A DNA stretch of 64,000 bases from Bradyrhizobium sp. AZCC 1693 (GTDB taxonomy: Bacteria > Pseudomonadota > Alphaproteobacteria > Rhizobiales > Xanthobacteraceae): positions 4,526,001-4,590,000 of the forward strand of contig NZ_JAZHSD010000001.1 of assembly GCF_036924745.1 (NCBI RefSeq), in the 5' to 3' direction. How positions within the stretch are numbered: the stretch's first letter is position 1; every line of letters starts with the position of its first letter. The translations under genes and the position numbers were made by a program. The notes beneath the pieces were generated by a model. The model worked only from the letters and a program-made list of their open reading frames with translations. It was not told the origin of the DNA and did no database searches. Positions 25,852 through 50,989 of the stretch are shown here, piece after piece.

Positions 25852-27711
25852 ATGGCCAACAAAGGCAACAAGCACGTCTGGGACTATTTGGCCTATTACC
25901 TCAAGCTCACACATGCGCCGGGCTTTGCAGTACTCCTTTCTGGCCCTTGGGGCGTCGGCAAGACCTATCTATTGAAAGCGTTCTTAAAGCAGCAGTTTGG
26001 GGACGATGCGGCTAACTACGTTTACGTGAGCCTCTACGGTCTTTCGACCATTGAAGAAATAGACGACGCGTTATTTCAAGCGGCTTTTCCGGCCTTGACC
26101 GGAAAAGCCGCCAAGGTGGCTGGTCGCGTTGCCAAGGCCGGCCTCAAATTTCTTAGGGTTGATCCTGGGGAATGGAGCATCAAGGAATTCCTCAGCAAGT
26201 TTGAGGCCAACGTCTATGTGTTTGATGATTTAGAGCGGTGCGAAGCACCGATTAACAAGGTGCTCGGCTATATAAATCAGTTTGTTGAGCACGCCGGCGC
26301 CAAGGTGATCATCCTTGCCAACGAGAAGGAAATCGGAGCTGACAACGACTACGCCCGTCGACGAGAAAAGCTGATCGGAAAGACCCTGCAAGTAAGCTCC
26401 GATTTTAATGCAGCGTTTGCGCATTTCGCCTCAAATATCGATCATGAGGGGGCGCGTTCATTTGTTCAGAGTAGCTTGGCCGACATCGCGACTATCTATA
26501 CCCAATCTACGCTAAACAACCTGCGTATTTTGCAGCAGACGATGTGGGACTTTGAGCGTTTGTTCGTCGTGCTGTCTCCTGAGCACCAAGCCAACACGGA
26601 TGCGATGGCGACGCTTCTGCGGCTGCTTGTTGTACTCTCTTTCGAGTACAAAGCGGCCCGCATCACAGAAGACGATATACTTGTGGGCCGCGGAATGGCG
26701 GCGATGATGCGAGCATCGTTCGCTAAAGATGAACCCAAAACGCCAATAGCCCTTTCGAGCGAGAGATATCCATCGGTAGATATTAATGACGATGTTCTCT
26801 CGAACCAACTTTTAGTCGACTACCTCGTGCGAGGAATCGTTGACGCTAATGCAATTCGCGCAGAGCTGGAGGCTAGCCGCTTCTTTGTCAAGGTTGCAGA
26901 CGAACAGCCTTGGCGCACTGTTTGGCATTGGATGGAGCGGTCAGATAGTGAATTTGATGCCGCACTGGCAAAGATGGAGAAGCAATTTGAGGAGCGCGCA
27001 TTGACCCAAGACGGCGAGATCCTTCATGTTCTCGGTCTGCGGCTCTTCCTCTCTGATCGTGGAATCTTGCGTCTGTCGAGAGCCGAAGTTGTCGCGCAGG
27101 GCAAGCAGTACATCGACGATGTTTGTGCAGCGAAGTCGATACAGTATCCGCCCCCCGGCGAGTTCAGCGAACTCCGTTTTCAAGGATGGGGTGGCCTGGG
27201 AATCAGCGAGCACGATACTGCCGAGTATAAAGAGCTGCGTCTGCATCTGACCGCGGCAGTGCAGCGCGCGGTCGAGGAGACATATCCCACGCAGGCGATT
27301 GATCTTCTATCCGAGATGACGTCGGACGTGGAGGGTTTCTACCGACACACCTCTTTGACCCATGCCGACGCCAGCCAATACATCCGCGCTCCTGTCCTCG
27401 CCCAGCTGGGGGTAGATGATTTCGTAAATGTGTTTCTTGCTCTTCATCCCGGCGCGCAGCACGTAGTGATGATGGCGCTTAAAGGCCGTTATGAGTACGG
27501 GCAGCTTGACCGCGATTTGAAAGAGGAAAGGCCTTGGATCACGTCGGTGCGAGACGCTCTTGTCGAACGCTTGCCGAGCTTAAGCCCTATTTCGCGGTAT
27601 CGCCTGCAGAGGCATATCGAATGGTACCTGCAAGCAGTTCATCCTGAGGCGGCTTCCGAGGAGAAGGAAACGGTTTCCGATGAGGAAGATGCTTCCGAGC
27701 CGGAGGCGTAA
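25852..27711 (+). CDS. KAP-type P-loop NTPase, candidate anti-phage protein
   Basis: This 619-residue protein has an N-terminal P-loop NTPase domain. The Walker A motif is GPWGVGKT (residues 31-38), preceded by WDYLAYYLKLTHAPGFAVLL. The Walker B is VYVFDDLER (about 121-129). These match the KAP NTPase group, several members of which sit in defence islands. I see no membrane helices inserted in the NTPase domain, and the C-terminal 300 residues are helical and unassigned, ending in an acidic tail (EEKETVSDEEDASEPEA). The base composition is visibly less GC-rich than its neighbours, which suggests transfer. It stands alone, with no obvious effector partner. Confidence 0.75.
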   Translation: MANKGNKHVWDYLAYYLKLTHAPGFAVLLSGPWGVGKTYLLKAFLKQQFGDDAANYVYVSLYGLSTIEEIDDALFQAAFPALTGKAAKVAGRVAKAGLKFLRVDPGEWSIKEFLSKFEANVYVFDDLERCEAPINKVLGYINQFVEHAGAKVIILANEKEIGADNDYARRREKLIGKTLQVSSDFNAAFAHFASNIDHEGARSFVQSSLADIATIYTQSTLNNLRILQQTMWDFERLFVVLSPEHQANTDAMATLLRLLVVLSFEYKAARITEDDILVGRGMAAMMRASFAKDEPKTPIALSSERYPSVDINDDVLSNQLLVDYLVRGIVDANAIRAELEASRFFVKVADEQPWRTVWHWMERSDSEFDAALAKMEKQFEERALTQDGEILHVLGLRLFLSDRGILRLSRAEVVAQGKQYIDDVCAAKSIQYPPPGEFSELRFQGWGGLGISEHDTAEYKELRLHLTAAVQRAVEETYPTQAIDLLSEMTSDVEGFYRHTSLTHADASQYIRAPVLAQLGVDDFVNVFLALHPGAQHVVMMALKGRYEYGQLDRDLKEERPWITSVRDALVERLPSLSPISRYRLQRHIEWYLQAVHPEAASEEKETVSDEEDASEPEA

Positions 27712-28208
27712 ATCTACGCGATCACGCCGTCCCCTCCATCTGGCCATTGGCGCCACTCGGGGCACCCACGTCAAGGCGTGGGCCACCCCGACAAACGTAT
27801 TCTCACGGCGTCATCGATATCCGGCTGCATCGGCGCTCGATCAACTTCTGTTTTTCCGAAATTTTCGTTGACGCCGGACCCAAATCAGCAATATACCGCT
27901 TTCGTCCCGTCCCGGTACGAGGGGCGTTTCGCGATCGTCACAAGCGCGGGATGGGATGCGGTGGACGCGGATGTGCCTTTGACGAACGGTGCGGATGCGT
28001 ACGGTGAAGTCGTGTGGTCCTGACGCCCCGATGCTGGCGTCAAGTTGGCGAGAAGCAATTCCGCCGGCGACGGTGACAACGAGCCCGGCCCGACCGGGGA
28101 GCAACTGTGTTTTTACACGTAGACCTGTGATCGGCCGGGCTCAAGGCTGGCGCTACGCGCCACCGCCTCCGGCGGCTGACGGCCTTGACCCCGTCCGCTC
28201 ACCGGTCG
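27712..28208. repeat. Genus-type dispersed repeat DNA downstream of the NTPase
   Basis: No intact gene is evident in these 497 bases. A frame in 27870-28022 (RYEGRFAIVTSAGWDAVDAD, then GEVVWS) and the following sequence resemble a non-coding dispersed segment often mis-called as hypothetical protein in Bradyrhizobium genomes (from memory). Several GC-rich inverted repeats follow (around 28140-28256) up to the transposase end. Confidence 0.5.
27843..27867 (+). repeat. Direct repeat, right copy, flanking the KAP NTPase segment
   Basis: AACTTCTGTTTTTCCGAAAT and the next bases match the copy at 24885-24909 apart from two one-base indels. It lies 131 bases after the NTPase stop. Confidence 0.6.
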
Positions 28209-29207
28209 TTAGGCTGGGCATGCGCTCGGCGGAAGCCGAGCGGGGTCGCTCGGTTTGTAACGGTTGGCGTCCCATTTTTGGCGTCGCGCGATCATGGTGT
28301 TGAGGATGACGATGAGCTTGCGCATACAGGCGGTGAGCGCAACCTTCGGCTCCTTTCCCTTGGCGATCAGGCGATCATAGAACGCCTTGAGCACGGGGTT
28401 GTGCTGGGTCGCAGCTCCCATGCAAGGCATGTAGAAGAGGTTGCGGGCCTTGCGGCGCCCGCCCTTGATGTGGCGGTTGCCCCGCCGTTGGCCGCTATCG
28501 TCATCGTAAGGTGCTACCCCCAGCAAGGCCGCGGCGATATTGTCGTTCACCTGGCCCAGTTCCGGCATCGTCGCGATCAGTCCGGCGGACGTGATCTTAC
28601 CAAGTCCCGGCACGCTCTCGATGATCTCGGCGAGCTCGGCAAAATGCGCCGTCGCTTTGACCATGGCGGAGATCGCGGTCTCGAGCTTGGCGACTTCGAC
28701 GGCAATCTTCTTCAAGAGCCGCGCCTGCATTTTCTGCACGACGTCCGGCACAGAATGCTCGCCACTGTTTTTCAAGCTGGTCTGCAGATCGAGCAGTCCC
28801 TGGCGCGCATTGACGATCTTGACCAGCCTCTCGCGTGCCGCGTCGAAGGCCTGGCCCGGCGCGTCGGTGAAGGTCTCGGCGAACCAGGCGATCATCTCCG
28901 CATCGATCGGATCGTTCTTGGCGAGGCGTCCGGCCGAGCGGGCGAAGCTGCGCACCCGCTTCGGGTCAACGATCCGGACTTCGATGCGGGCCTCGCGCAG
29001 CGCCTTGGCCCAGTCCTGCTCATAACCGCCGGAAGCCTCCATGGCTGCCTTGCCGACCTTGTGTTTGCGAAGCCAGCGGATCAATGCGTGCCGCCCCTCT
29101 GCGGTGCTCGGGAACGTCTGCCGTTGAGACAGCGAGCGAATGCATGCATCCACCTTGTCCTTGGCCACATCAACACCGACGACAACGACCTCATTTTGTG
29201 CCATCAT
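28209..29207 (-). CDS. IS110-family transposase (DEDD recombinase)
   Basis: This 332-residue protein has an N-terminal RuvC-like DEDD domain (VVGVDVAKDKVDAC, MEASGGYEQDW, KNDPIDAEMIAWFAE) and the C-terminal Transposase_20 domain (IIESVPGLGKITSAGLIATM, LGVAPYDDDSGQRRGNRHIK). Both domains look complete, so the enzyme may be active. Starts at 29207 or 29204 share the AGGAAGGGAG ribosome binding site; the second ATG has the better spacing. IS110 enzymes are guided by a bridge RNA transcribed from the element's non-coding end. A 407-residue frame on the opposite strand is a shadow. Confidence 0.93.
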   Translation of the reverse strand: MMAQNEVVVVGVDVAKDKVDACIRSLSQRQTFPSTAEGRHALIRWLRKHKVGKAAMEASGGYEQDWAKALREARIEVRIVDPKRVRSFARSAGRLAKNDPIDAEMIAWFAETFTDAPGQAFDAARERLVKIVNARQGLLDLQTSLKNSGEHSVPDVVQKMQARLLKKIAVEVAKLETAISAMVKATAHFAELAEIIESVPGLGKITSAGLIATMPELGQVNDNIAAALLGVAPYDDDSGQRRGNRHIKGGRRKARNLFYMPCMGAATQHNPVLKAFYDRLIAKGKEPKVALTACMRKLIVILNTMIARRQKWDANRYKPSDPARLPPSACPA

Positions 29208-39597: not shown

Positions 39598-40272
39598 ATG
39601 AAGCTCGTAGTCGTCACGCCTATTAGGCTGTTCGGCGAGGGTCTTGCCTCCTGCTTCTCGCACTGCGCGGACATCTCCTTACAAGCGACCGTCTGCGATC
39701 TGATTTGCCTGCGACAATGCCTTCAGACCAGGGAGGTAGATATTGTCCTGATCGACGTCACGCAGGGCATTGATCTTGATGAGGTTCGCTCGATTGCGTC
39801 CGAACGTACCGACATTGCCTTGGTCGCGCTCGGTCTCCGCGAAGAACGGGGAGATGTGGTCCGCTGCGGTCGAGCGGGGTTCCGCGGTTATGTGGACAGA
39901 AATGCTTCGATCGAGGGACTCTGCCAGGCCCTTTCTGACGTTTCCTCGGGGCGACTGGCGTGCAGCGCCGAGATATCTGGCGGATTGTTGCGCGCGCTGT
40001 TTGGCATCGAACGCACCGCCCATTCGATGGAACTCGGCGAAGCGCTAACCCGCCGCGAGGGAGAGGTCCTCCAATTGATCGGACAAGGCCTGTCGAACAA
40101 GGAGATTGCACGCCATCTGCGCTTGAGCCTCGCGACGGTAAAGCACCACGTTCACCACATTCTTCAGAAGCTCAAGCTGCCGCGCCGCGCCCAGGCGATG
40201 CGCCGCGTGCGCGAGACGCCGTGGATTGCATCGTCTGCGCCGTCGTTGGTCCGGCATCAGGATTTCGACTAG
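39598..40272 (+). CDS. LuxR-type response regulator
   Basis: This 224-residue protein has a receiver-like N-terminal domain (MKLVVVTPIRLFGEGLASCF, Asp in DIVLIDVTQ) and a C-terminal LuxR/NarL helix-turn-helix (TRREGEVLQLIGQGLSNKEI, then VKHHVHHILQKL). The usual acidic pocket after the first beta strand is weak (VVTP), so phosphorylation may be lost. No histidine kinase gene is next to it. It lies 640 bases upstream of the PatA/PatG-like protease gene on the same strand and is a candidate regulator of that cluster. Confidence 0.88.
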   Translation: MKLVVVTPIRLFGEGLASCFSHCADISLQATVCDLICLRQCLQTREVDIVLIDVTQGIDLDEVRSIASERTDIALVALGLREERGDVVRCGRAGFRGYVDRNASIEGLCQALSDVSSGRLACSAEISGGLLRALFGIERTAHSMELGEALTRREGEVLQLIGQGLSNKEIARHLRLSLATVKHHVHHILQKLKLPRRAQAMRRVRETPWIASSAPSLVRHQDFD

Positions 40273-40911: not shown

Positions 40912-43317
40912 ATGAATCCAGTAACGGATATCTCCGGCCTTTCCGCACTGTGGCAGCAGGCCTCGGGCGGTGACCCGGAAATCAGGATTGCGGTCATCGA
41001 CGGGCCCGTCGATCTCAACCACTCCGCGCTGCGGCAGGCGCGTGTCACCGCCGGTGAGCAATTTGTTGCCGCCTCCTCCGTCGTCATGTCCGAACATGGG
41101 ACGCATATCACGAGTGTGATTGCGGGCGCGCCGGCGAGCGGCGTATGCGGCATCGCCCCGAACTGCGCGACGACGGTCTTTTCCATCTACCGGGAAAATG
41201 CTGGCGGCGAACTGGAGCCGTCGTCCCAGGCCACACTCGCGATGGCGATCAATCAGGCCCTGGCCGAGGGTGCAGACGTCATCAACATCAGCAGCGGCCA
41301 GCAGACTCCGACCGGACAGGCCGACCGTATCCTCAGCGATGCGGTTCGAGCCTGCGCGAGTGCCGGCAAACTCATCGTGGCTGCCGCCGGCAATGACGGC
41401 TGCCGATGCGTTCAGGTACCCGGCAGTCTGGCGTCCGTGCTTGCCGTCGGTGCTTGCGACCTGGCAGGTAATCCGCTGCCGTTCAGCAATTTCGGTGACC
41501 CGTATCTCGACAACGGCATTTTGGCCCCGGGTGAGAATGTTCTCGGCGCATCGCCGATCCGGCAGGTCGCGGAGCGGTCCGGGACCAGCTTTGCAGCGCC
41601 GATCGTAACCGGGATTGTCGCTCTCTTGCTTTCCTGTCTCCGCAAAGCCGGACGCGATGCCAGTCCTCAAGCGGTCCGTGCCGCACTTCTGGCCAGCGCG
41701 GCACCTTGCAGTGCCGGAAGCGCCGGCAGCCCTCGCTGTCTCGCCGGGCTGCTCGATGTTTCCGGTGCCGTCGCAGCGTTGCTTGGCGAGAAACACAACC
41801 GGATTACCGGCGCGTCGCCGTCGAGCGTCGCCGCCGGAAGGACCCGCCGCCTCGGTGAGGTCTCGGAAATCGCACGCTCCTCCGTTCAACCACAATCCGC
41901 CGCTCCATCAACTGCAACCAGAGAGGGTTCCATGGGAGAAATAGCAGCCGCCTCCACGTCTTCCACACCGCGTATTCTTGGCCCCGACGGCTCAGTGGTC
42001 AGGAGCGGTGCCGGGCTCATGCCCAGCGAAGTCCAATCCAGCCCGCCGGCAGCGGCTACGCCGCCGTCCGCGGAATACGGCGCCGGCGCACCGTCCGTGC
42101 CGGCTGCCGCGCCGCAGTTCTACGCGCCGTCGGCAGGCAACGACGTTGTCTGGGTACCGATGGCGATGTCGGGCGGAGCCGCCTCGCACGGATGGGCGCC
42201 GGCACAGATGCCCGCAATGACGCCAAGTTCGGTTCCGCTACCCGCGATGCTGCCTTCCGCGCCTGCGCGCTATGAGTTCACACCATCCGCTCAGACAAGC
42301 GAGACCGGTTGCGGCTGCGGCGGCGTACGCCCGTCGGAAGCTCCGGGGACCAGTCGGGGGCAAATGGCGTTCCCGATCGGAAGAATTTTTTACGATTTCG
42401 GCAAGGAAGCGCGCCTCGACTACTTCGTTCAGGCGATCGCCAATTGGCGCGACAGCCTCACCGGACGAGGCGATCCGATCTTCGGACCGGATCGAGACCG
42501 GTCGGGAGACACCGCAGCTCCCTACAATCCGGCAATCATGGCTCGCTACCTCCTGAATCAAGCCGAAGGCGAAATGAGCACGCCGGCCGGTCAGGGCAGC
42601 AATTTCCCGGATGCAGACGCCATAAACTGGACGCTGACCATCGATTCGATACCGATCTATGCCATCAAGCCGCTCGACGTCTTTGGTTTGGGTTTCTTCG
42701 CAGCACTGATCCTGGCGCTATGGCATCAGGAAGTGTCGCATGAGGATCCGGCCCACTACCGAATGGGCGCACCGGACGCCGCGGCGGCTCCCCCCATTCC
42801 ACGCGACGCGTTCCCGCCTCGCGGCGGTGTTGCTCGCGTTTCGATGGCCGGATGGGTCGACAGCACGAATACGACAAAGCTGCTCAACGGCACCATCGTT
42901 CCCACGCTCGTCACCGACTGGCGAGGATTCTACCAATGGGATCTGTACTCATTGTTTGGCCCGGAAGCGGATGAGTGGCCTGCCGGCGCCGAGGGATTCC
43001 TGGAACGCATCTACAACGAATTCCGGAACGTCGGCATTTCCCCGCAGGATCGCGCGCTCAATTACTCGGCGATGAACGCGTACAATACCAAGAAGATCTT
43101 CACGGACGTCGCAACCAAAGAGATGCGTCTGGACACCGTCGAAGTCGACCGGAGCGTCATCTGCCGTCCCGATTCCGACTGCTGGGACGTCACGTATCGG
43201 TTCTTCAATCCGACGGCGGTTCTGACCCAGGCCCGTGAAGTCTATCAGTACACGATCGATGTGAGTGACGTCGTGCCGGTGGCAGTCGGGCCGCTGCGGC
43301 AATGGCAGATCTATTGA
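40912..43317 (+). CDS. PatA/PatG-family subtilisin-like peptide maturation protease
   Basis: This 801-residue protein has an N-terminal S8 protease with a complete triad: Asp30 (AVIDGPVDLNH), His62 (EHGTHITSVIAG) and Ser226 (SGTSFAAPIVTG). Residues about 320-480 are a Pro/Ala/Ser-rich linker with a GCGCGG motif (Cys467, Cys469). Residues 485-801 match the C-terminal domain of cyanobactin PatA/PatG proteases: FPIGRIFYDFGKEARLDYF, IDSIPIYAIKPLD, RVSMAGWVDS, PQDRALNYSAMNAYNTKKIF and ICRPDSDCWDVTYRFFNP. No signal peptide is visible. Three small ORFs and a membrane methyltransferase follow, suggesting cleavage of ribosomal precursor peptides. The start is ATG 40912; its ribosome binding site is modest. 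Confidence 0.9.
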   Translation: MNPVTDISGLSALWQQASGGDPEIRIAVIDGPVDLNHSALRQARVTAGEQFVAASSVVMSEHGTHITSVIAGAPASGVCGIAPNCATTVFSIYRENAGGELEPSSQATLAMAINQALAEGADVINISSGQQTPTGQADRILSDAVRACASAGKLIVAAAGNDGCRCVQVPGSLASVLAVGACDLAGNPLPFSNFGDPYLDNGILAPGENVLGASPIRQVAERSGTSFAAPIVTGIVALLLSCLRKAGRDASPQAVRAALLASAAPCSAGSAGSPRCLAGLLDVSGAVAALLGEKHNRITGASPSSVAAGRTRRLGEVSEIARSSVQPQSAAPSTATREGSMGEIAAASTSSTPRILGPDGSVVRSGAGLMPSEVQSSPPAAATPPSAEYGAGAPSVPAAAPQFYAPSAGNDVVWVPMAMSGGAASHGWAPAQMPAMTPSSVPLPAMLPSAPARYEFTPSAQTSETGCGCGGVRPSEAPGTSRGQMAFPIGRIFYDFGKEARLDYFVQAIANWRDSLTGRGDPIFGPDRDRSGDTAAPYNPAIMARYLLNQAEGEMSTPAGQGSNFPDADAINWTLTIDSIPIYAIKPLDVFGLGFFAALILALWHQEVSHEDPAHYRMGAPDAAAAPPIPRDAFPPRGGVARVSMAGWVDSTNTTKLLNGTIVPTLVTDWRGFYQWDLYSLFGPEADEWPAGAEGFLERIYNEFRNVGISPQDRALNYSAMNAYNTKKIFTDVATKEMRLDTVEVDRSVICRPDSDCWDVTYRFFNPTAVLTQAREVYQYTIDVSDVVPVAVGPLRQWQIY

Positions 43318-43325
43318 GGCGATTG

Positions 43326-43375
43326 CTCCTCCCGGTTCGGAGGAGAGCAGAACGTGGCGCGCAACTGCGCCACGT
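43326..43375 (+). promoter_or_regulatory. Tandem stem-loops between the protease and first small ORF
   Basis: Hairpin 1 is CTCCTCC/GGAGGAG (43326-43345). Hairpin 2 is ACGTGGCGC/GCGCCACGT (43352-43375), a perfect 9-bp stem with a 6-base loop. Neither has a T-run. They may cap the protease mRNA 3' end or stabilise a separate transcript for the small ORFs. Confidence 0.55.
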
Positions 43376-43482
43376 GGTCCAGGGACCAGCAGATCTCTGG
43401 GCGACGTCCGTCGATGGTTGTTCTGGCTGGCGCTGACTTCCGGCAGCAACCGTCAACTCAACCCTAGAACAAGGAGCTGAAT

Positions 43483-43674
43483 ATGTACGCGAGGAATGAT
43501 CTGGAGACCTTCAGCACCGTGCGCAGCCCGATCCAGTGTGAGGGCATCGAGCGCGGTCCGAAGAGAATTGCTGAAGTGGCCAACAGCGGATCGGTCAACC
43601 CGCAAGGCTGGCAGGACATCGTCGGCGCAGCGGCCCAGGCGTTGCCCGGCGTTCTGGGCGCGTTTGGTATCTGA
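43483..43674 (+). CDS. Small ORF, candidate precursor peptide A
   Basis: This 63-residue peptide follows a strong AAGGAG seven bases before its ATG. The N-terminal 35 residues are charged, with a single cysteine (Cys19). The C-terminal part is hydrophobic and Gly/Ala-rich, ending GAAAQALPGVLGAFGI, which looks like a core or amphipathic bioactive segment after a leader. It has no signal peptide, double-glycine leader or cyanobactin recognition sequence that I can see. Its place just after the PatA/PatG-like protease makes it the best substrate candidate. Being a precursor is inference. Confidence 0.65.
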   Translation: MYARNDLETFSTVRSPIQCEGIERGPKRIAEVANSGSVNPQGWQDIVGAAAQALPGVLGAFGI

Positions 43675-43683
43675 TCGACACTC

Positions 43684-43706
43684 GGGGCCCGACTCGGTCG
43701 GGCCCC
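43684..43706 (+). promoter_or_regulatory. Very stable hairpin between small ORFs A and B
   Basis: GGGGCCCGAC and GTCGGGCCCC form a perfect 10-bp GC-rich stem with a TCG loop, starting 10 bases after the stop of ORF A. No T-run follows, so it may be a processing or partial termination structure that raises the amount of ORF A mRNA relative to downstream genes. Confidence 0.6.
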
Positions 43707-43727
43707 ACCCTGCATCGGGAGGTCAAC

Positions 43728-43895
43728 ATGGCGCAAGAGTCGACTGCCGAAAACTCTCCGCAGCACAACGGCAACAAGGTCGTCCAGCCGGCGGGGAAGA
43801 TCGTCGTTTCATCAGTCGTTACCCATCAATCGCTGATCGACGCGATCAAGAAGAGAAATCCCATCATCGCGAGCCGCACCGAAGCGGAACGCTGA
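43728..43895 (+). CDS. Small ORF, candidate precursor peptide B
   Basis: The frame encodes 55 residues, starting MAQESTAENSPQHNGNKVVQ and ending IIASRTEAER. The ribosome binding site GGGAGG lies five bases before the ATG. The peptide has a hydrophilic N-terminus, a Val/Ile-rich middle (GKIVVSSVV) and a basic patch (IKKRN) and lacks cysteine. It belongs to the run of small genes after the protease. No known family was recognised. Coding is supported by the ribosome binding site and the tight gene spacing rather than by homology. Confidence 0.6.
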   Translation: MAQESTAENSPQHNGNKVVQPAGKIVVSSVVTHQSLIDAIKKRNPIIASRTEAER

Positions 43896-43928
43896 TACGT
43901 CATCATCCCAATCAAGGAGCTTCATCCA

Positions 43929-44288
43929 ATGGCAACACCTCCCCGGAAAACTGGTGGCGGCAAAGCCGGCGGTCCACCGCCAGCCGCCCCTCGCCCGCAA
44001 GCGGCCGGTCGACCGCAAGCCGCCGAGCCCCCGCAAGCTGCCGATCGACCGGTCAAGCTGCAAGCTGCGGACGCATCGCGTCCGGAGATTGCAACTTATA
44101 CCGCCCCGACGTCGTCATCCTACGTGGTCCCTCCGCAGGGTCCCGGTGCTCCGACCCAGCTTCGGCATGATGGCGCGCCGCCGTCGGAAGAGCGGCTCAA
44201 TACGGCGATGAAGGCGCTGCTTGATCCAGCGGCGCGAACAAGTTCCAGCCGGGTGTATTCGGGACAAGCCCGCAACTGGCACCGTTGA
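43929..44288 (+). CDS. Small Pro/Ala-rich protein C in the protease cluster
   Basis: This 119-residue protein has AAGGAG 8-10 bases before ATG 43929, in a context similar to that of ORF A (CAAGGAGCT). The N-terminal half is low-complexity with an imperfect repeat RPQAAGRPQAAEPPQAADRP. The C-terminal half is more ordered (ERLNTAMKALLDPAARTSSS) and ends in basic and aromatic residues (ARNWHR). The Pro/Ala region resembles the linker of the protease. It may be a substrate, scaffold or immunity partner; none is proven. Confidence 0.65.
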   Translation: MATPPRKTGGGKAGGPPPAAPRPQAAGRPQAAEPPQAADRPVKLQAADASRPEIATYTAPTSSSYVVPPQGPGAPTQLRHDGAPPSEERLNTAMKALLDPAARTSSSRVYSGQARNWHR

Positions 44289-44320
44289 GCGACGCGCGAA
44301 ACGCTAGCTGCGGATGACAA

Positions 44321-45010
44321 ATGAGTACCGGCAGAAATCCTTCCCACCTCAGCCCCCTGATGCGCGCGATGTCCTCACTCGCCGGCATCGGGGCGCTGCT
44401 GTTTATGACGGCGGGCACGGTGCAATGGTTGGGTGCATGGGTTTTCCTTTTCGAGATCAGCATTGGCGGCCTCGTCACCGAATCGTGGCTGGCAAGGCAT
44501 GATCCCGAACTTCTGGCCGAACGCCGTTCGACGCGCGGTCAGGTAGGCTGGGACAGGATACTGACGACGATCATTTCGCTGCTTTGGCTCGGCTGGCTTC
44601 CCCTGATGGCGCTCGATGCCGCACGGTTTCGATGGTCGTCGGTTCCTGGCTGGCTACAATGCATCGGTGCAATAGTCCTCGCCGCGTCGTTTTTCCTCGT
44701 TTATCTCGCCTATCGGGAGAACAGCTACGCCGCACCCGGTGTGAAGATCCAGCGCCAACGAGGACACACGGCAATCACGACGGGCCCCTACGAATATGTC
44801 CGGCATCCGATCTACGCGAGCGGGCTGCTTTCCTATCTCGGCACGCCGCTGTTACTGGGGTCCTGGTATGGCCTTGCCATCGTGCCGGTCATGGCAGCCC
44901 TGCTTGCTTTTCGTACCGTCATGGAGGAGCGGATGCTCAAGGCCGAGCTTGACGGCTATCTCGAATATTCTGCCCGTGTCCGCTACCGCCTCCTGCCCAT
45001 GGTCTGGTAG
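44321..45010 (+). CDS. Isoprenylcysteine carboxyl methyltransferase-like membrane enzyme
   Basis: This 229-residue integral membrane protein has about five hydrophobic helices. The C-terminal ICMT/PEMT signature is ITTGPYEYVRHPIYASGLLS, followed by EERMLKAELDGYLEYSARVR. In this superfamily a membrane-embedded enzyme transfers a methyl group from SAM to a carboxylate, an amine or a lipid. Bacterial members are mostly uncharacterised. It starts 32 bases after ORF C and likely closes the peptide operon. A C-terminal methyl ester on a peptide is one possibility, but an unrelated lipid substrate is equally open. Confidence 0.85.
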   Translation: MSTGRNPSHLSPLMRAMSSLAGIGALLFMTAGTVQWLGAWVFLFEISIGGLVTESWLARHDPELLAERRSTRGQVGWDRILTTIISLLWLGWLPLMALDAARFRWSSVPGWLQCIGAIVLAASFFLVYLAYRENSYAAPGVKIQRQRGHTAITTGPYEYVRHPIYASGLLSYLGTPLLLGSWYGLAIVPVMAALLAFRTVMEERMLKAELDGYLEYSARVRYRLLPMVW

Positions 45011-45799: not shown

Positions 45800-45907
45800 G
45801 TGGAAAATGGCGGAATTTGCCGCCTCCCATGACGAAACGGCGCTTGTCCTTTACGCGGAACGCAGGCAGAACATTCCGAAATCTATCGAATTTCGGAGTT
45901 GAAACCC

Positions 45908-46855
45908 GTGGCTGAAAACCGGCCGTCGGCCTCGATCGAGGCAGTGGAAAGCGGTCTTGCGGCGCAAGGCTATATTGCGAGCCGCCAAATCGCGACCGCG
46001 GTCTATCTGGCGCAGCAGATCGAAAAACCCATCCTGGTCGAAGGCCCCGCCGGCGTTGGCAAGACCGAGCTTGCCAAGGCGATCGCCGCCTGGCGCGGCA
46101 TGAAGATGATCCGCCTGCAGTGCTATGAAGGGCTCGACGAGGCCAAGGCGCTGTACGAGTGGAAATACGCCAAGCAGCTTCTGTATACGCAGATCCTCAA
46201 GGACAAGCTCGGCGAGGTCCTCGGCGGTGCGCCGACGCTCGAAGCGGCGCTCAACCAGCTTCATGATTTCGGCGACGTGTTCTTCTCCAAGGAATTCGTC
46301 GAGCCGCGGCCGCTCTTGCAGGCACTGGAACAACCGGCCGGCTGCGTGCTGCTGATCGACGAAATCGACAAGTCGGACGCGGAGTTCGAGTCGCTATTGC
46401 TGGAAATCCTCAGTGATTTCCAGGTGACCATTCCGGAACTCGGCACCGTTGTCGCGGTCGCGCCGCCGACCGTGATCCTGACATCGAACAGCGAGCGTGA
46501 TCTCGGCGACGCGCTGAAGCGGCGCTGCCTGCATTTGCATATCGGCTTCCCCGAACAGAGACTGGAAGAGCGGATCGTCGAGAGCCGCGTGCCCGGCATT
46601 TCGCAGACGCTGCGCAAGCAGATGGTGAGCTTCATTCATGAAGTCCGCACCCTCGACCTGAAGAAACTGCCGTCGGTCAGCGAGACCATCGACTGGGCGC
46701 GCGTGCTGGTGCTGCTGCAGGCTCCCGAACTCGGCCATGAAGTGGTCAAGGATACGCTGAACGTCCTCCTGAAATACGAGGCGGATATCGAGGCCGCGTC
46801 GCCTCAGGTATCCACCTTCATCGCCAAGGCCACGCGTCAAAACGTCTTCGGATAG
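45908..46855 (+). CDS. MoxR-family AAA+ ATPase (CoxD-like)
   Basis: This 315-residue AAA+ protein has Walker A GPAGVGKTELAKA, Walker B CVLLIDEIDK and sensor 1 TSNSERDL. It closely fits the CoxD branch, which helps mature molybdenum-copper CO dehydrogenase and related hydroxylases. GTG 45908 with GGAG upstream is preferred over TTG 45899. Its gene is followed eight bases later by the VWA protein gene, the standard MoxR-VWA pairing. It faces the Mo-hydroxylase operon, a likely client. Confidence 0.9.
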   Translation: MAENRPSASIEAVESGLAAQGYIASRQIATAVYLAQQIEKPILVEGPAGVGKTELAKAIAAWRGMKMIRLQCYEGLDEAKALYEWKYAKQLLYTQILKDKLGEVLGGAPTLEAALNQLHDFGDVFFSKEFVEPRPLLQALEQPAGCVLLIDEIDKSDAEFESLLLEILSDFQVTIPELGTVVAVAPPTVILTSNSERDLGDALKRRCLHLHIGFPEQRLEERIVESRVPGISQTLRKQMVSFIHEVRTLDLKKLPSVSETIDWARVLVLLQAPELGHEVVKDTLNVLLKYEADIEAASPQVSTFIAKATRQNVFG

Positions 46856-46862
46856 ACAAGGG

Positions 46863-48239
46863 ATGAGAGAGAACCTGCATCGCTTCTTTCGTGCGGCGCG
46901 GGGCGCGGGGGTAAAGCTCTCGCCGGCCGAAAGCATCGACGCGATGCGGGCCGTCTCCAAGGTCGGCTTCACCGACCGCACCATCCTGCGCGACACCTTC
47001 CTGCTCACGCTCGCCAAGACACAGGACGAGAAGAAGGCGCTCGGCGATTGCTTTGACCTGTTCTTCGATCAGCCCGAGCCGCAGTCACCACCCAAGGACG
47101 GCAAGGCCGACGAGCAGGATCCGTCCGGATCCAACGCTGCATCCGATTCGCCCGGCGATTCAAGCGGCGGCGACGAGCAGGCCGAGGGGCTTGGCCAGCT
47201 CGCCCAGATGCTGCTGGCGCAGGACCGTAGCCAGATTTCGGCGGCCATCGCCAATGCGGCGAGTGCAGCCTCACTATCCGACATCCGCTATTTTACGCAG
47301 CGCGGCATCTTCTCCGGCCGCATCCTCGACCAGATGGGCATCCAGCGCCTGCGCGACGATCTCGGCAATCTGGCCGCGACCAACCCGGCAGTGGCGGAAC
47401 GGCTGACCAACGCGCTGGACGGGCTGCGCGGCACGGTTCGCGATACGGTCTCGCAGGCGCTCACGCTGTACGGACGCGAGGAAGCGGAAAACCTGCGCAA
47501 CGAGATTTTGCGCAATGCGCCACTGTCGCGGATCGAGCCGCGGCAGGTCGAGCAGATGCGGCATCTGATCCGGCAGATCGCGCGCCGGCTGCGCGAGCGC
47601 TACTCCAAGCCGCGCAAACGACAGCGCCGCGGCCATCTCGACGTTCGCCGCACCATTCGCCGCAATGCCGCCTGGGGCGGCGTGCCGTTCCTGACAGCGT
47701 GGAAACGACGGCATCGCGACAAGCCGAAGATCGTAGCGCTCTGCGACGTCTCCGGCTCGGTGGCGCGGGTCTCCGATTTCTTCCTGCTGCTGATCCACAG
47801 CCTGCACGAGGTCGTGGACGACGTCCGCTCGTTTGCGTTCTCCGGACATCTGATCGAGGTCAGCGACATCCTGGAATCGAAATCGCCGGAGGAGGCGATG
47901 GCCGAGATCATGTCCAAGGTCGGCTTCGGCTCGTCCGACTACGGCAACTCCTTCGACGATTTCGAGCACGGCTGGATGAGCGCGATCACGCCGCAAACCA
48001 CCGTGATCGTGCTCGGCGATGCCCGCAGCAACGACCTCGATCCCCGTGCCGACATTCTTCGCCGCATCGCCGAGCGGTCGAAGCGGCTGGTCTGGCTCAA
48101 TCCGGAGGGCCGCATGGCCTGGGGCTGGGGCGATTCCGAGATGCCGCGTTACTCCACCTTCTGCACCGTGGTCCGCCAATGCGCCACCGCAAAGCAGCTC
48201 GAACGCGCGGTGTCGGATATCGTGGCGAGCTATCAGTAA
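46863..48239 (+). CDS. VWA-containing CoxE-like protein
   Basis: This 458-residue partner of the MoxR ATPase has an acidic low-complexity segment (about residues 75-115), a helical middle and a C-terminal VWA domain. The VWA metal-site motif CDVSGSVARVSDFF starts near residue 295. CoxE-like proteins work with the ATPase in inserting or activating the cofactor of Mo hydroxylases. The gene ends six bases from the stop of the convergent Mo-subunit gene. Confidence 0.9.
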   Translation: MRENLHRFFRAARGAGVKLSPAESIDAMRAVSKVGFTDRTILRDTFLLTLAKTQDEKKALGDCFDLFFDQPEPQSPPKDGKADEQDPSGSNAASDSPGDSSGGDEQAEGLGQLAQMLLAQDRSQISAAIANAASAASLSDIRYFTQRGIFSGRILDQMGIQRLRDDLGNLAATNPAVAERLTNALDGLRGTVRDTVSQALTLYGREEAENLRNEILRNAPLSRIEPRQVEQMRHLIRQIARRLRERYSKPRKRQRRGHLDVRRTIRRNAAWGGVPFLTAWKRRHRDKPKIVALCDVSGSVARVSDFFLLLIHSLHEVVDDVRSFAFSGHLIEVSDILESKSPEEAMAEIMSKVGFGSSDYGNSFDDFEHGWMSAITPQTTVIVLGDARSNDLDPRADILRRIAERSKRLVWLNPEGRMAWGWGDSEMPRYSTFCTVVRQCATAKQLERAVSDIVASYQ

Positions 48240-50495: not shown

Positions 50496-50989
50496 CGCAC
50501 TCTCCCGTCGGCCGTCGACGAAGCATCCGCGGTGTCCATCAGCCTCGCCGCACAATGCACCGCGCGCAGGATGCGCATATGGGTGCCGCAGCGACACAGA
50601 TGAGGCTCAAGCTCGGAACTGATCTGCTCATTGGTCGGCCTGGAATTTCTCTGCAGAAGGGCCTGCGCCCGCATCATGATTCCGGCGATGCAGTAACCGC
50701 ATTGTGCTGCCTGCTCTTCCATAAAGGCGCGCTGGATCGGCGCGGGTTCCGACGCCGTGCCGAGGCCCTCAAGCGTCGTTACCTCCTTGCCTTCAAGCAA
50801 AATCATCGGCGTCACGCAGGAGAGCACGGCCTTGCCGTCGACGATCACCGTGCACGCGCCGCACTGGCCCAGGCCGCAGCCGAATTTGGCGGCGTTGAGC
50901 TTGATGTCTTCGCGCAGCACATAGAGCAGCGGCGTATCCGGATCGGCGTCCACCTGATGCTCCCGACCGTTGACCTTCAATGTCATCAT
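50492..50989 (-). CDS. (2Fe-2S)-binding subunit of the Mo hydroxylase (IorA-like)
   Basis: This 165-residue small subunit carries two 2Fe-2S clusters. The plant-type cluster ligands are Cys38, Cys43, Cys46 and Cys58 (GCGLGQCGACTV). The second cluster uses Cys97, Cys100, Cys132 and Cys134 (QCGYC and CRCG). Electrons pass from the Mo centre to the cytochrome subunit. It has no export signal of its own, so it is probably carried out by the Tat signal on the large subunit. Both ends overlap neighbouring genes by ATGA. Confidence 0.95.
   Translation of the reverse strand: MMTLKVNGREHQVDADPDTPLLYVLREDIKLNAAKFGCGLGQCGACTVIVDGKAVLSCVTPMILLEGKEVTTLEGLGTASEPAPIQRAFMEEQAAQCGYCIAGIMMRAQALLQRNSRPTNEQISSELEPHLCRCGTHMRILRAVHCAARLMDTADASSTADGRVR

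Follow-up and report, generated by a model that had tools for sequence, protein, structure and literature searches.

The block described here lies in a window (the whole stretch of DNA that was analysed, 64,000 nucleotides) from Bradyrhizobium sp. AZCC 1693 and comprises six genes on the forward strand. A LuxR/NarL-type regulator with a GerE domain (39598..40272) is followed by an 801-aa PatA-type S8 protease with a C-terminal PatG DUF (40912..43317), ORF1 (63 aa, 43483..43674), ORF2 (55 aa, 43728..43895), ORF3 (119 aa, proline-rich with a conserved C-terminus, 43929..44288), and an ICMT/PEMT-type membrane methyltransferase (44321..45010, starting at 44321 or 44360). An earlier note, made from the sequence of this DNA, had reported the protease, three small ORFs and an ICMT-like methyltransferase on one strand; their positions are confirmed. 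The extent that it gave (40912..45010) holds these genes but is too short on the left, since the regulator also belongs to the inserted unit; the GC3 of this gene (0.707) is similar to that of the rest. Nothing in the unit was recognisable as an exporter or immunity gene. Domain search found no YcaO among its proteins, as the note had said for the locus; the genome has one YcaO, at a distance of about 0.95 Mb. Rfam gave no match at gathering scores anywhere in the window, and promoter and terminator scans performed at about chance level.

The protease consists of a subtilisin domain (residues 1-294, 40912..41793; mostly high pLDDT), a low-complexity linker with CGCGG (residues 295-480, 41794..42351; pLDDT <50), and the DUF, which is defined by Pfam (PatG_D plus PatG_C), PDB entry 4uvq and the structural model (residues 481-801, 42352..43314). 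The earlier note had proposed a PatA/PatG-type C-terminal domain and regarded a failed search with PatG profiles as evidence against it. The search succeeded: the protein scores 474.1 bits with TIGR03895 (NCBIfam cut-off 421.05), and PatG_C (119 bits) and PatG_D (32.2 bits) also exceed their Pfam cut-offs, which places it in the PatA/PatG family. The proposed triad holds as well, with Asp30, His62 and Ser226 aligned with D, H and S in 23/24 aligned proteases, the exception being one misaligned Gloeothece G protein. Two linker cysteines, C467 and C469, are nearly invariant across 83 rows.

Within this family, the window protease resembles the leader-removing PatA (A type) and not the PatG macrocyclase, because its Asp-His spacing is 32, compared with 71 in 3/3 Bradyrhizobium G types; the range across 20 A-type rows is 29-35. 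The macrocyclization insert sits between Asp and His, consistent with these values, and a spacing of 32 leaves the window protease without it. The family named in the earlier note was thus right, but the enzyme appears to be of the A type. The top PDB match of the subtilisin domain is the N-terminal cyanobactin protease 4h6w (E 2.3e-70). PDB A-type proteases score 240.7 and 223.2 bits against the window protease, and macrocyclase entries reach about 155 bits in alignments that begin only at its residue 56. The DUF matches 4uvq with E 1.4e-29; to our knowledge, no role had been assigned to the PatA/PatG DUF at the time its structure was determined. The DUF of PatG did not bind PatE (PMC4259220). 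A fused AlphaFold2 model left both leader and core of ORF1 unplaced (pLDDT <50 for residues 804-920), and no leader docking was seen. PMC4663559 describes a macrocyclization insert in the PatG-type macrocyclase and two proteases, A and G, in the cyanobactin gene set; the whole AZCC 1693 genome contains one single PatG_C match.

ORF1 is the likely precursor peptide of the unit. It carries a leader with PIQCEGIER (43528..43554), a form of PQQGQPVIR of PatE (P.Q..PV.R), which is also present in its homologues, then SVNPQ (43591..43605), and then the hypervariable hydrophobic core GWQDIVGAAAQALPGVLGAFGI (43606..43671; GRAVY 0.99). ORF1 has 50 homologues. The contrast between leader and tail is evident in two measures: pN is 0.022 in the leader and 0.183 in the tail, and mean entropy is 0.55 bits over 28 leader columns versus 2.17 bits over 22 well-filled columns past residue 41. 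Within SVNPQ, P40 is invariant in 50 sequences and V38, N39 and Q41 are nearly so. This putative cleavage signal would be a degenerate form of the PatA consensus G(L/V)E(A/P)S (PMC10885120), with strict agreement at only two positions. NCBIfam whole-leader models gave no match to ORF1. The earlier note had seen no classic precursor with a recognition sequence, which is true of AYDG (ORF1 ends in AFGI, and the ends vary among homologues) but overlooks the cyanobactin-type leader motif. Its idea of a RiPP-type system is retained in that the leader/core pattern appears RiPP-like, with cleavage and modification predicted, although only ORF1 of the three small ORFs looks like a precursor.

ORF1-ORF3 and the methyltransferase behave as genes, because all are kept in 26/26 further loci and the mean pN / mean pS values of the small ORFs over 19 loci are 0.30-0.36 (ORF1 0.35, ORF2 0.30, and ORF3 0.36, the last being rough, like the ratio for the LuxR-type regulator, as some copies of these two were taken from a wrong start). 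No PatB or PatC homology was detected among ORF1-3 by NCBIfam, our own profiles or hhalign, and the identification of ORF2 or ORF3 as such a homologue was rejected for want of any signal. The methyltransferase exceeds the Pfam cut-offs for PEMT (44.8 bits) and ICMT (36.9 bits) and reaches 56.5 bits with the NCBIfam ICMT equivalog, below its cut-off of 160.

The complete unit was found in 27 genomes having a window-type ORF1, of 265 searched; regulator, protease, ORF1, ORF2, ORF3 and methyltransferase were all kept in the 26 loci besides that of the window. The neighbourhood comparison proposed in the earlier note, in which protease homologues consistently without the small ORFs and methyltransferase nearby would have spoken against a system, did not refute its proposal. 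At 7/7 checked sites without window-type ORF1 the unit was absent, with the flanking genes adjacent in five, and the regulator matched other regulators there only over short HTH stretches. Protease (over cut-off) and ORF1 co-occur in the same four of 60 genomes, own included. PatG_C was found in 2/385 genomes of a class draw and 2/398 of a phylum draw, with the window's own genome counted in each. A search of 297 genomes of the order with the A1 profile, at most 21 candidates being scored per genome, returned nothing beyond the window itself and one match, in a 931-codon frame, that looks like chance. One window-type relative was seen outside Bradyrhizobium (G797, the only one of 17 genomes of its family with PatG_C), where two ORF1 homologues stand side by side. 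A profile built from Bradyrhizobium sequences only recovered ORF3 there (E 7e-9) and missed ORF2, whose assignment in G797 by position only was not retained. Nor is the host as unusual as the earlier note supposed: clusters of cyanobactin type, encoding YcaO, PatB and two PatG-domain proteases, occur in three further genomes of Bradyrhizobium.

The leader motif is also found next to proteases of this kind in other Bradyrhizobium, in Streptomyces and in cyanobacteria. It is visible in the PatE sequence from PDB, and the precursor of one Bradyrhizobium cluster (L091) matches PatE with E 6.5e-7. The strict motif, fixed before 15 held-out loci were examined, was found in eight of them, two of the 15 being Streptomyces relatives of the defining loci. 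Among small ORFs lying up to 2.5 kb away on the same strand as the protease, 18/492 contain it, versus 3/1479 elsewhere (p 7e-9, with tandem copies and overlapping ORFs that are not independent). The relaxed motif was widened after L118 and PatB had been seen, and among its 43 matches are PatB-like ORFs and at least one ORF that looks like a chance match (L091 16395). The motif was absent in every form tried from 4/21 loci with PatG-type proteins, a count that omits L092 (without the strict motif), L134, the window-type repeats, and L086 and L098, which coincide in place with L097 and L125.

Taken together, the block is probably an acquired, protease-only, cyanobactin-like peptide unit, equivalent in its working to the first half of a cyanobactin pathway. 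The regulator would switch on the block, and ORF1 would be made as a leader-core precursor whose leader is recognised by the PatA-type protease, probably through P.Q..PV.R. Cleavage after SVNPQ would set free a hydrophobic, linear peptide, some 22-23 residues long, whose free C-terminal carboxylate may be methylated by the membrane methyltransferase, as in linear cyanobactins. ORF2 and ORF3 would serve as accessory proteins, and the product may be a membrane-active or signalling peptide.

ORF1 could instead be a PatB-like accessory that binds the protease via the motif, with the true substrate elsewhere or in ORF2 or ORF3, which are kept as well as ORF1. PatB of Gloeothece and of the three Bradyrhizobium clusters indeed carries the motif as P.L..PV.R, and we know of no PatB protein that serves as a substrate. 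However, the presence of a conserved cleavage-like motif followed by a hypervariable tail, the seemingly up to three ORF1 homologues per contig, with the adjacent pair in G797, and the failure of both our PatB profile and TIGR04220 (over cut-off in 4/4 of these PatB proteins) to detect ORF1 make this improbable. We consider it similarly improbable that the leader holds a hydrophobic helix harmless until triggering of the protease frees the peptide, which then damages the membrane of the producing cell as part of a stress or anti-phage response. This reading would suit the hydrophobic tail, which a low-confidence model shows as helical, a protease without signal peptide (judged by eye), the missing exporter and the accessory distribution; matches to ponericin, ant antimicrobial and delta-lysin occur in just 1-2/50 ORF1 relatives, near chance. 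On the other hand, the PADLOC matches were limited to a generic subtilase model, an IetS fragment and, at the HTH part of the regulator, CARF models, and a known anti-phage defence system was accordingly discarded. Moreover, Cys-rich cores of other lineages look exported, and a BTAD-type regulator accompanies 4/4 fetched Streptomyces loci in which the protease is whole, which suggests a part in specialised metabolism.

The system might also consist of protease and ORF1 only, with the methyltransferase, ORF2 and ORF3 as passengers. The earlier note had counted the methyltransferase as a part, which its conservation in the Bradyrhizobium loci supports, but none of 14 other PatG-type loci, G797 among them, has a relative of it; ORF2 of G797 is positional only, and in other loci the protease and precursors, often with a regulator, occur without these three genes. 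Nevertheless, we regard the passenger reading as rather unlikely, given that all six genes occur together or are absent together at the sites described above and that G797 retains ORF3.

The preferred reading, a protease-only peptide unit, would widen the range of cyanobactin-type processing to include soil rhizobia and, judging by plasmid records, Streptomyces. Such units would be missed by mining keyed to YcaO or AYDG because they have no macrocyclase or heterocyclase, and ORF1-type cores make up a new group of candidates for bioactive peptides. The survival of the motif where the protease is the sole shared tailoring enzyme suggests that the motif is read by the protease or its DUF, which makes the role of the DUF directly testable. 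A broader proposal, which we advance tentatively and with chances somewhat below even, is that PatA-type protease and P.Q..PV.R leader form an ancient self-sufficient peptide-release module of rhizobia, Streptomyces and cyanobacteria, in which the cores are hydrophobic, Cys-rich or heterocyclisable. Cyanobactins would then be one branch with macrocyclase and YcaO added, the DUF would read the motif, and the window's methyltransferase would cap the C-terminus.

Compared with cyanobactin pathways of the patellamide (pat) and anacyclamide/sphaerocyclamide types, the unit shares an A-type protease with DUF, a PatE-type leader motif and a cleavage-like motif ahead of a variable core; the sphaerocyclamide type likewise has no heterocyclase, according to PMC6162287. 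Unlike these pathways, the unit has a leader without the PatE-type LAELSEE helix and a hydrophobic core of 22-23 residues. Judged by its gene content, it is not a cyanobactin pathway: G macrocyclase, AYDG, local YcaO and any detected PatB or PatC homologue are all lacking. Linear cyanobactins (aeruginosamide, viridisamide) are alike in the linear product expected here, and their C-terminus is methylated according to PMC4663559; their cores have 3-5 residues, and they use a bimodular methyltransferase-prenyltransferase where the window has a membrane ICMT/PEMT-type protein. The three Bradyrhizobium clusters (L089, L090 and L091) share genus, protease domain set and leader motif with the window, but have A and G proteases, YcaO (3/3), PatB (3/3) and, in two of three, CAYSG-like tails; L090 also has a PatC-like protein (19.9 bits, below the cut-off of 30). 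The Streptomyces plasmid loci (L099, L100, L132 and L133) are similar in having one A-type protease (33-36% identity to that of the window) followed by motif-bearing small ORFs, the tails of which are mostly hydrophobic after GVEA-type sites. They differ in the BTAD regulator, at least four motif-bearing ORFs and no methyltransferase relative; the suggestion that their last small ORF is PatB was dropped, two such ORFs matching no NCBIfam model. Its small putative precursor joins a leader motif of cyanobactin type to a long hydrophobic tail, and together with a protease of the leader-cutting kind this makes the unit look like a stripped-down relative of cyanobactin pathways with a peptide product.

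The protease, the small ORFs and the methyltransferase constitute a real, conserved peptide unit that is gained or lost as a block in Bradyrhizobium. PatG_C was found in 35 of the 265 genomes of the genus searched, and inspection of all 35 showed that 27 (including that of the window) carry ORF1 (43483-43674) or its close kin. The LuxR-type regulator (39598-40272 in the window), protease, ORF2, ORF3, methyltransferase and HAD neighbour were each detected by tblastn in 26/26 of the other loci, bearing out an earlier note that had placed the small ORFs and the methyltransferase with the protease. A trypsin-like neighbour is present in 24 of these 26 loci, the remaining two stretches stopping within LuxR. 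The same gene set was observed in all 18 named loci, which overlap with the 26. We also searched for the HAD gene in 14 genomes outside the 35 PatG_C carriers (10 + 4, from two lists) and retrieved seven regions, none of which had a protease, ORF1-3 or methyltransferase match at E 1e-4. In these regions without the unit, the trypsin-like gene adjoins HAD in five, the two matches lie ~1.1 kb apart in one, and the trypsin-like gene was not found in one. DNA similarity to unit-free sites returns at ~45,155 on the right; the left edge lies approximately near the start of the trypsin-like gene. GC3 is 0.71 in the three larger genes of the unit versus 0.79-0.84 in the three larger genes on each side, with low values also outside the unit (0.71 for the gene at 50986 and 0.60 for the gene at 25852). 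Based on presence/absence, edges and GC3, the unit spans ~39.3-45.15 kb, including the regulator and methyltransferase.

Elsewhere in the window, the gene with GC3 of 0.60 encodes a KAP-type P-loop NTPase near an IS110-family transposase (25852-29204), and this region is perhaps another acquired element. An AAA ATPase and CoxE-type VWA pair (45899-48239) resembles the MadB/MadC families under their cut-offs. Far from the unit in the same genome (contig 1, ~3.62 Mb; locus L144, 1999-5510), a YcaO lies beside a 703-aa regulator-like protein.

The protease gene (40912-43317, + strand) encodes 801 aa with Peptidase_S8, PatG_D and PatG_C domains, all above their Pfam cut-offs. TIGR03895, the PatA/PatG family model, also exceeds its cut-off, and the PatA/PatG-like character claimed earlier thus passed the profile check against PatG domains. 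The nearest named loci by protease are from Bradyrhizobium (top, B. algeriense, 95%). In a PDB search, the closest solved structure was 4h6w, an N-terminal cyanobactin protease (E 2.3e-70), followed by 4h6v and 3zxx, named subtilisin-like protein, which we take to be PatA. For 4h6x and 4aks (named thiazoline oxidase/subtilisin-like protease and presumably the PatG macrocyclase), the alignment begins at residue 56 with ~155 bits. The C-terminal DUF (PatG_D and PatG_C) matches 4uvq (E 1.4e-29). A two-helix insert distinguishes the PatG macrocyclase from PatA, according to the available text of PMC4663559. Among 24 aligned proteases, the Asp-His spacing is 71 in three Bradyrhizobium G types (PatG-like) and 29-35 in 20 others, including the window protease (32); one misaligned Gloeothece G protein was left out. 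A PatG_C search of the whole genome (7.6 Mb, one contig) gave a single match, and therefore no second, macrocyclase-type protein of the PatA/PatG family was found there.

ORF1 (63 aa), ORF2 (55 aa), ORF3 (119 aa) and the ICMT/PEMT-type membrane protein (to 45010) follow 3' of the protease on the same strand, and the ribosome-binding sites of ORF1-3 appear good by eye, as noted before. ORF1 has 50 homologues at E ≤ 0.1, with P16, Q18, C19, G21, I22, E23, R24, G25 and P40 invariant in the alignment; the tail past Q41 is variable, and hydrophobic in the members inspected. Five pairs of protease and ORF1 homologues have contigs of equal size (P0070/P0025, P0072/P0027, P0060/P0014, P0054/P0009 and P0055/P0007), which suggests that each pair shares a contig; several ORF1 homologues are likewise on contigs equal in size to each other. 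Across 19 Bradyrhizobium copies, pN is 0.022 in the leader (43483-43605) and 0.183 in the core, and pS is 0.119 versus 0.369. As pS is low in the leader as well as pN, the leader DNA is kept beyond the need of its protein; this may reflect a further DNA/RNA signal or tail swapping by recombination.

Three other Bradyrhizobium genomes (G430, G378 and G427) contain cyanobactin-type clusters (L089 5208-12880, L090 6833-14328 and L091 5957-14793, respectively), each with one A-type (PatA-like) and one G-type protease, YcaO and a PatB above the TIGR04220 cut-off, the last two namings being confirmed on checking. A PatC-like protein in L090 is below cut-off (19.9 vs 30). Their precursors carry the leader motifs RPIQTAPVAR, KPVQIAPVSR and IPQQSAPVRR, followed by an L(A/S)ELSEET helix; two of the three also have CAYSG close to their end. 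PatE in the PDB, with LPQQGQPVIR in the alignment, matches the precursors of L091 (E 6.5e-7) and L089 (E 0.021), the latter also matched by TIGR03678 under its cut-off (6e-6). In ORF1, RSPIQCEGIERG has the same frame as this PatE-type motif. L090 has an additional motif-bearing small ORF upstream. The form P.L..PVKR opens PatB at L130 9335-9550 and L090 12271-12486; the common motif suggests that PatB may share a binding partner with the precursor.

Small ORFs with a form of the PatE-type motif, often several, adjoin the protease in Streptomyces plasmids (L099, L100, L132 and L133), and also in Gloeocapsa (L101), Nostoc (L129), Acaryochloris (L135), a member of the same order as the window host (L125) and further Bradyrhizobium (L087, L088 and L118). 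All three domains are present in the proteases checked (L099, L133 and L101). The strict form of the motif matched 8/15 held-out loci and 10/24,775 shuffled ORFs. A relaxed form, widened after the fact, was found in 17/21 loci (the L130 match being PatB, not a precursor) and in 43/687 same-strand small ORFs near the protease vs 12/2,481 others. At some loci with one A-type protease, the motif-bearing small ORFs next to it, as many as four, have Cys-rich rather than hydrophobic tails (L088 9670-10606, L125 8324-9264, L129 6928-7119, L101 7918-8223 and L087 9111-9260). Divergent PatG_C proteins at L093 9819-10790, L094 8302-10173 and L095 8591-10758 (the last apparently split) have no motif-bearing small ORF nearby. 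Naming the Streptomyces end ORF as PatB was dropped on checking.

Outside the genus, G797 (same class, other family) has the protease, two tandem ORF1-like precursors, ORF2 by position and an ORF3 homologue (7e-9), with no methyltransferase relative within 19 kb. A profile built from window-type ORF1 alone finds both G797 precursors (2e-12 and 5e-8) and one L118 precursor (6e-4). It detects no Streptomyces precursor at E 1, and adding G797 to the profile brings in two L133 small ORFs, at 0.19 and 0.36. What links the unit to Streptomyces is therefore the motif, where it lies, and the protease. In the protease tree, whose deep forks are weak and in which L094 is a very long branch, the five window-type rows fall inside a 13-row group (support 99/99). 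This group also includes G797, P0114 and further metagenomic homologues, as well as P0128 (named Cedecea) and P0145 (named Photorhabdus), which sit on a very long branch. The A types of YcaO clusters lie outside this group.

Most likely, the protease would cut the leader off after SVNPQ, releasing a linear hydrophobic peptide of 22-23 residues. SVNPQ fits loosely the PatA consensus G(L/V)E(A/P)S given in the accessible portion of PMC10885120, and GVEAD, GVEAN, GIEPS and GVEPS of other lineages are closer. Binding of the leader by the DUF is less favoured, because the PatG DUF alone showed no PatE binding by NMR and its ITC signal was put down to aggregation (PMC4259220, as far as its available text goes), and because a fused model of protease and ORF1 left the leader unplaced; that NMR work concerned a different, isolated DUF, and the fused model is a weak test. 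Following leader removal by the protease, the methyltransferase might methylate the C-terminus of the released peptide. It retains RHPIY and EE (by eye), which we take to be the motif of its kind. This role is modelled on linear cyanobactins, whose C-termini are methylated (PMC4663559, available text). A CaaX-type role is unlikely, since ORF1 has no C-terminal Cys.

Among the titles and abstract openings listed in searches of open literature, we found no account of such protease-only systems in Bradyrhizobium or Streptomyces; an earlier description is possible in subscription papers, mostly outside this search. A cyanobactin peptidase gene, with a cyanobactin-like peptide expected, is mentioned for Roseomonas oryzae in the accessible part of PMC8776678, and heterocycle-free cyanobactins are already known (PMC4603692 and PMC6162287). 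The unit has no macrocyclase, AYDG or B/C genes and on these grounds falls outside the cyanobactins; what it would share with them, in its proposed working, is the leader-removal step.
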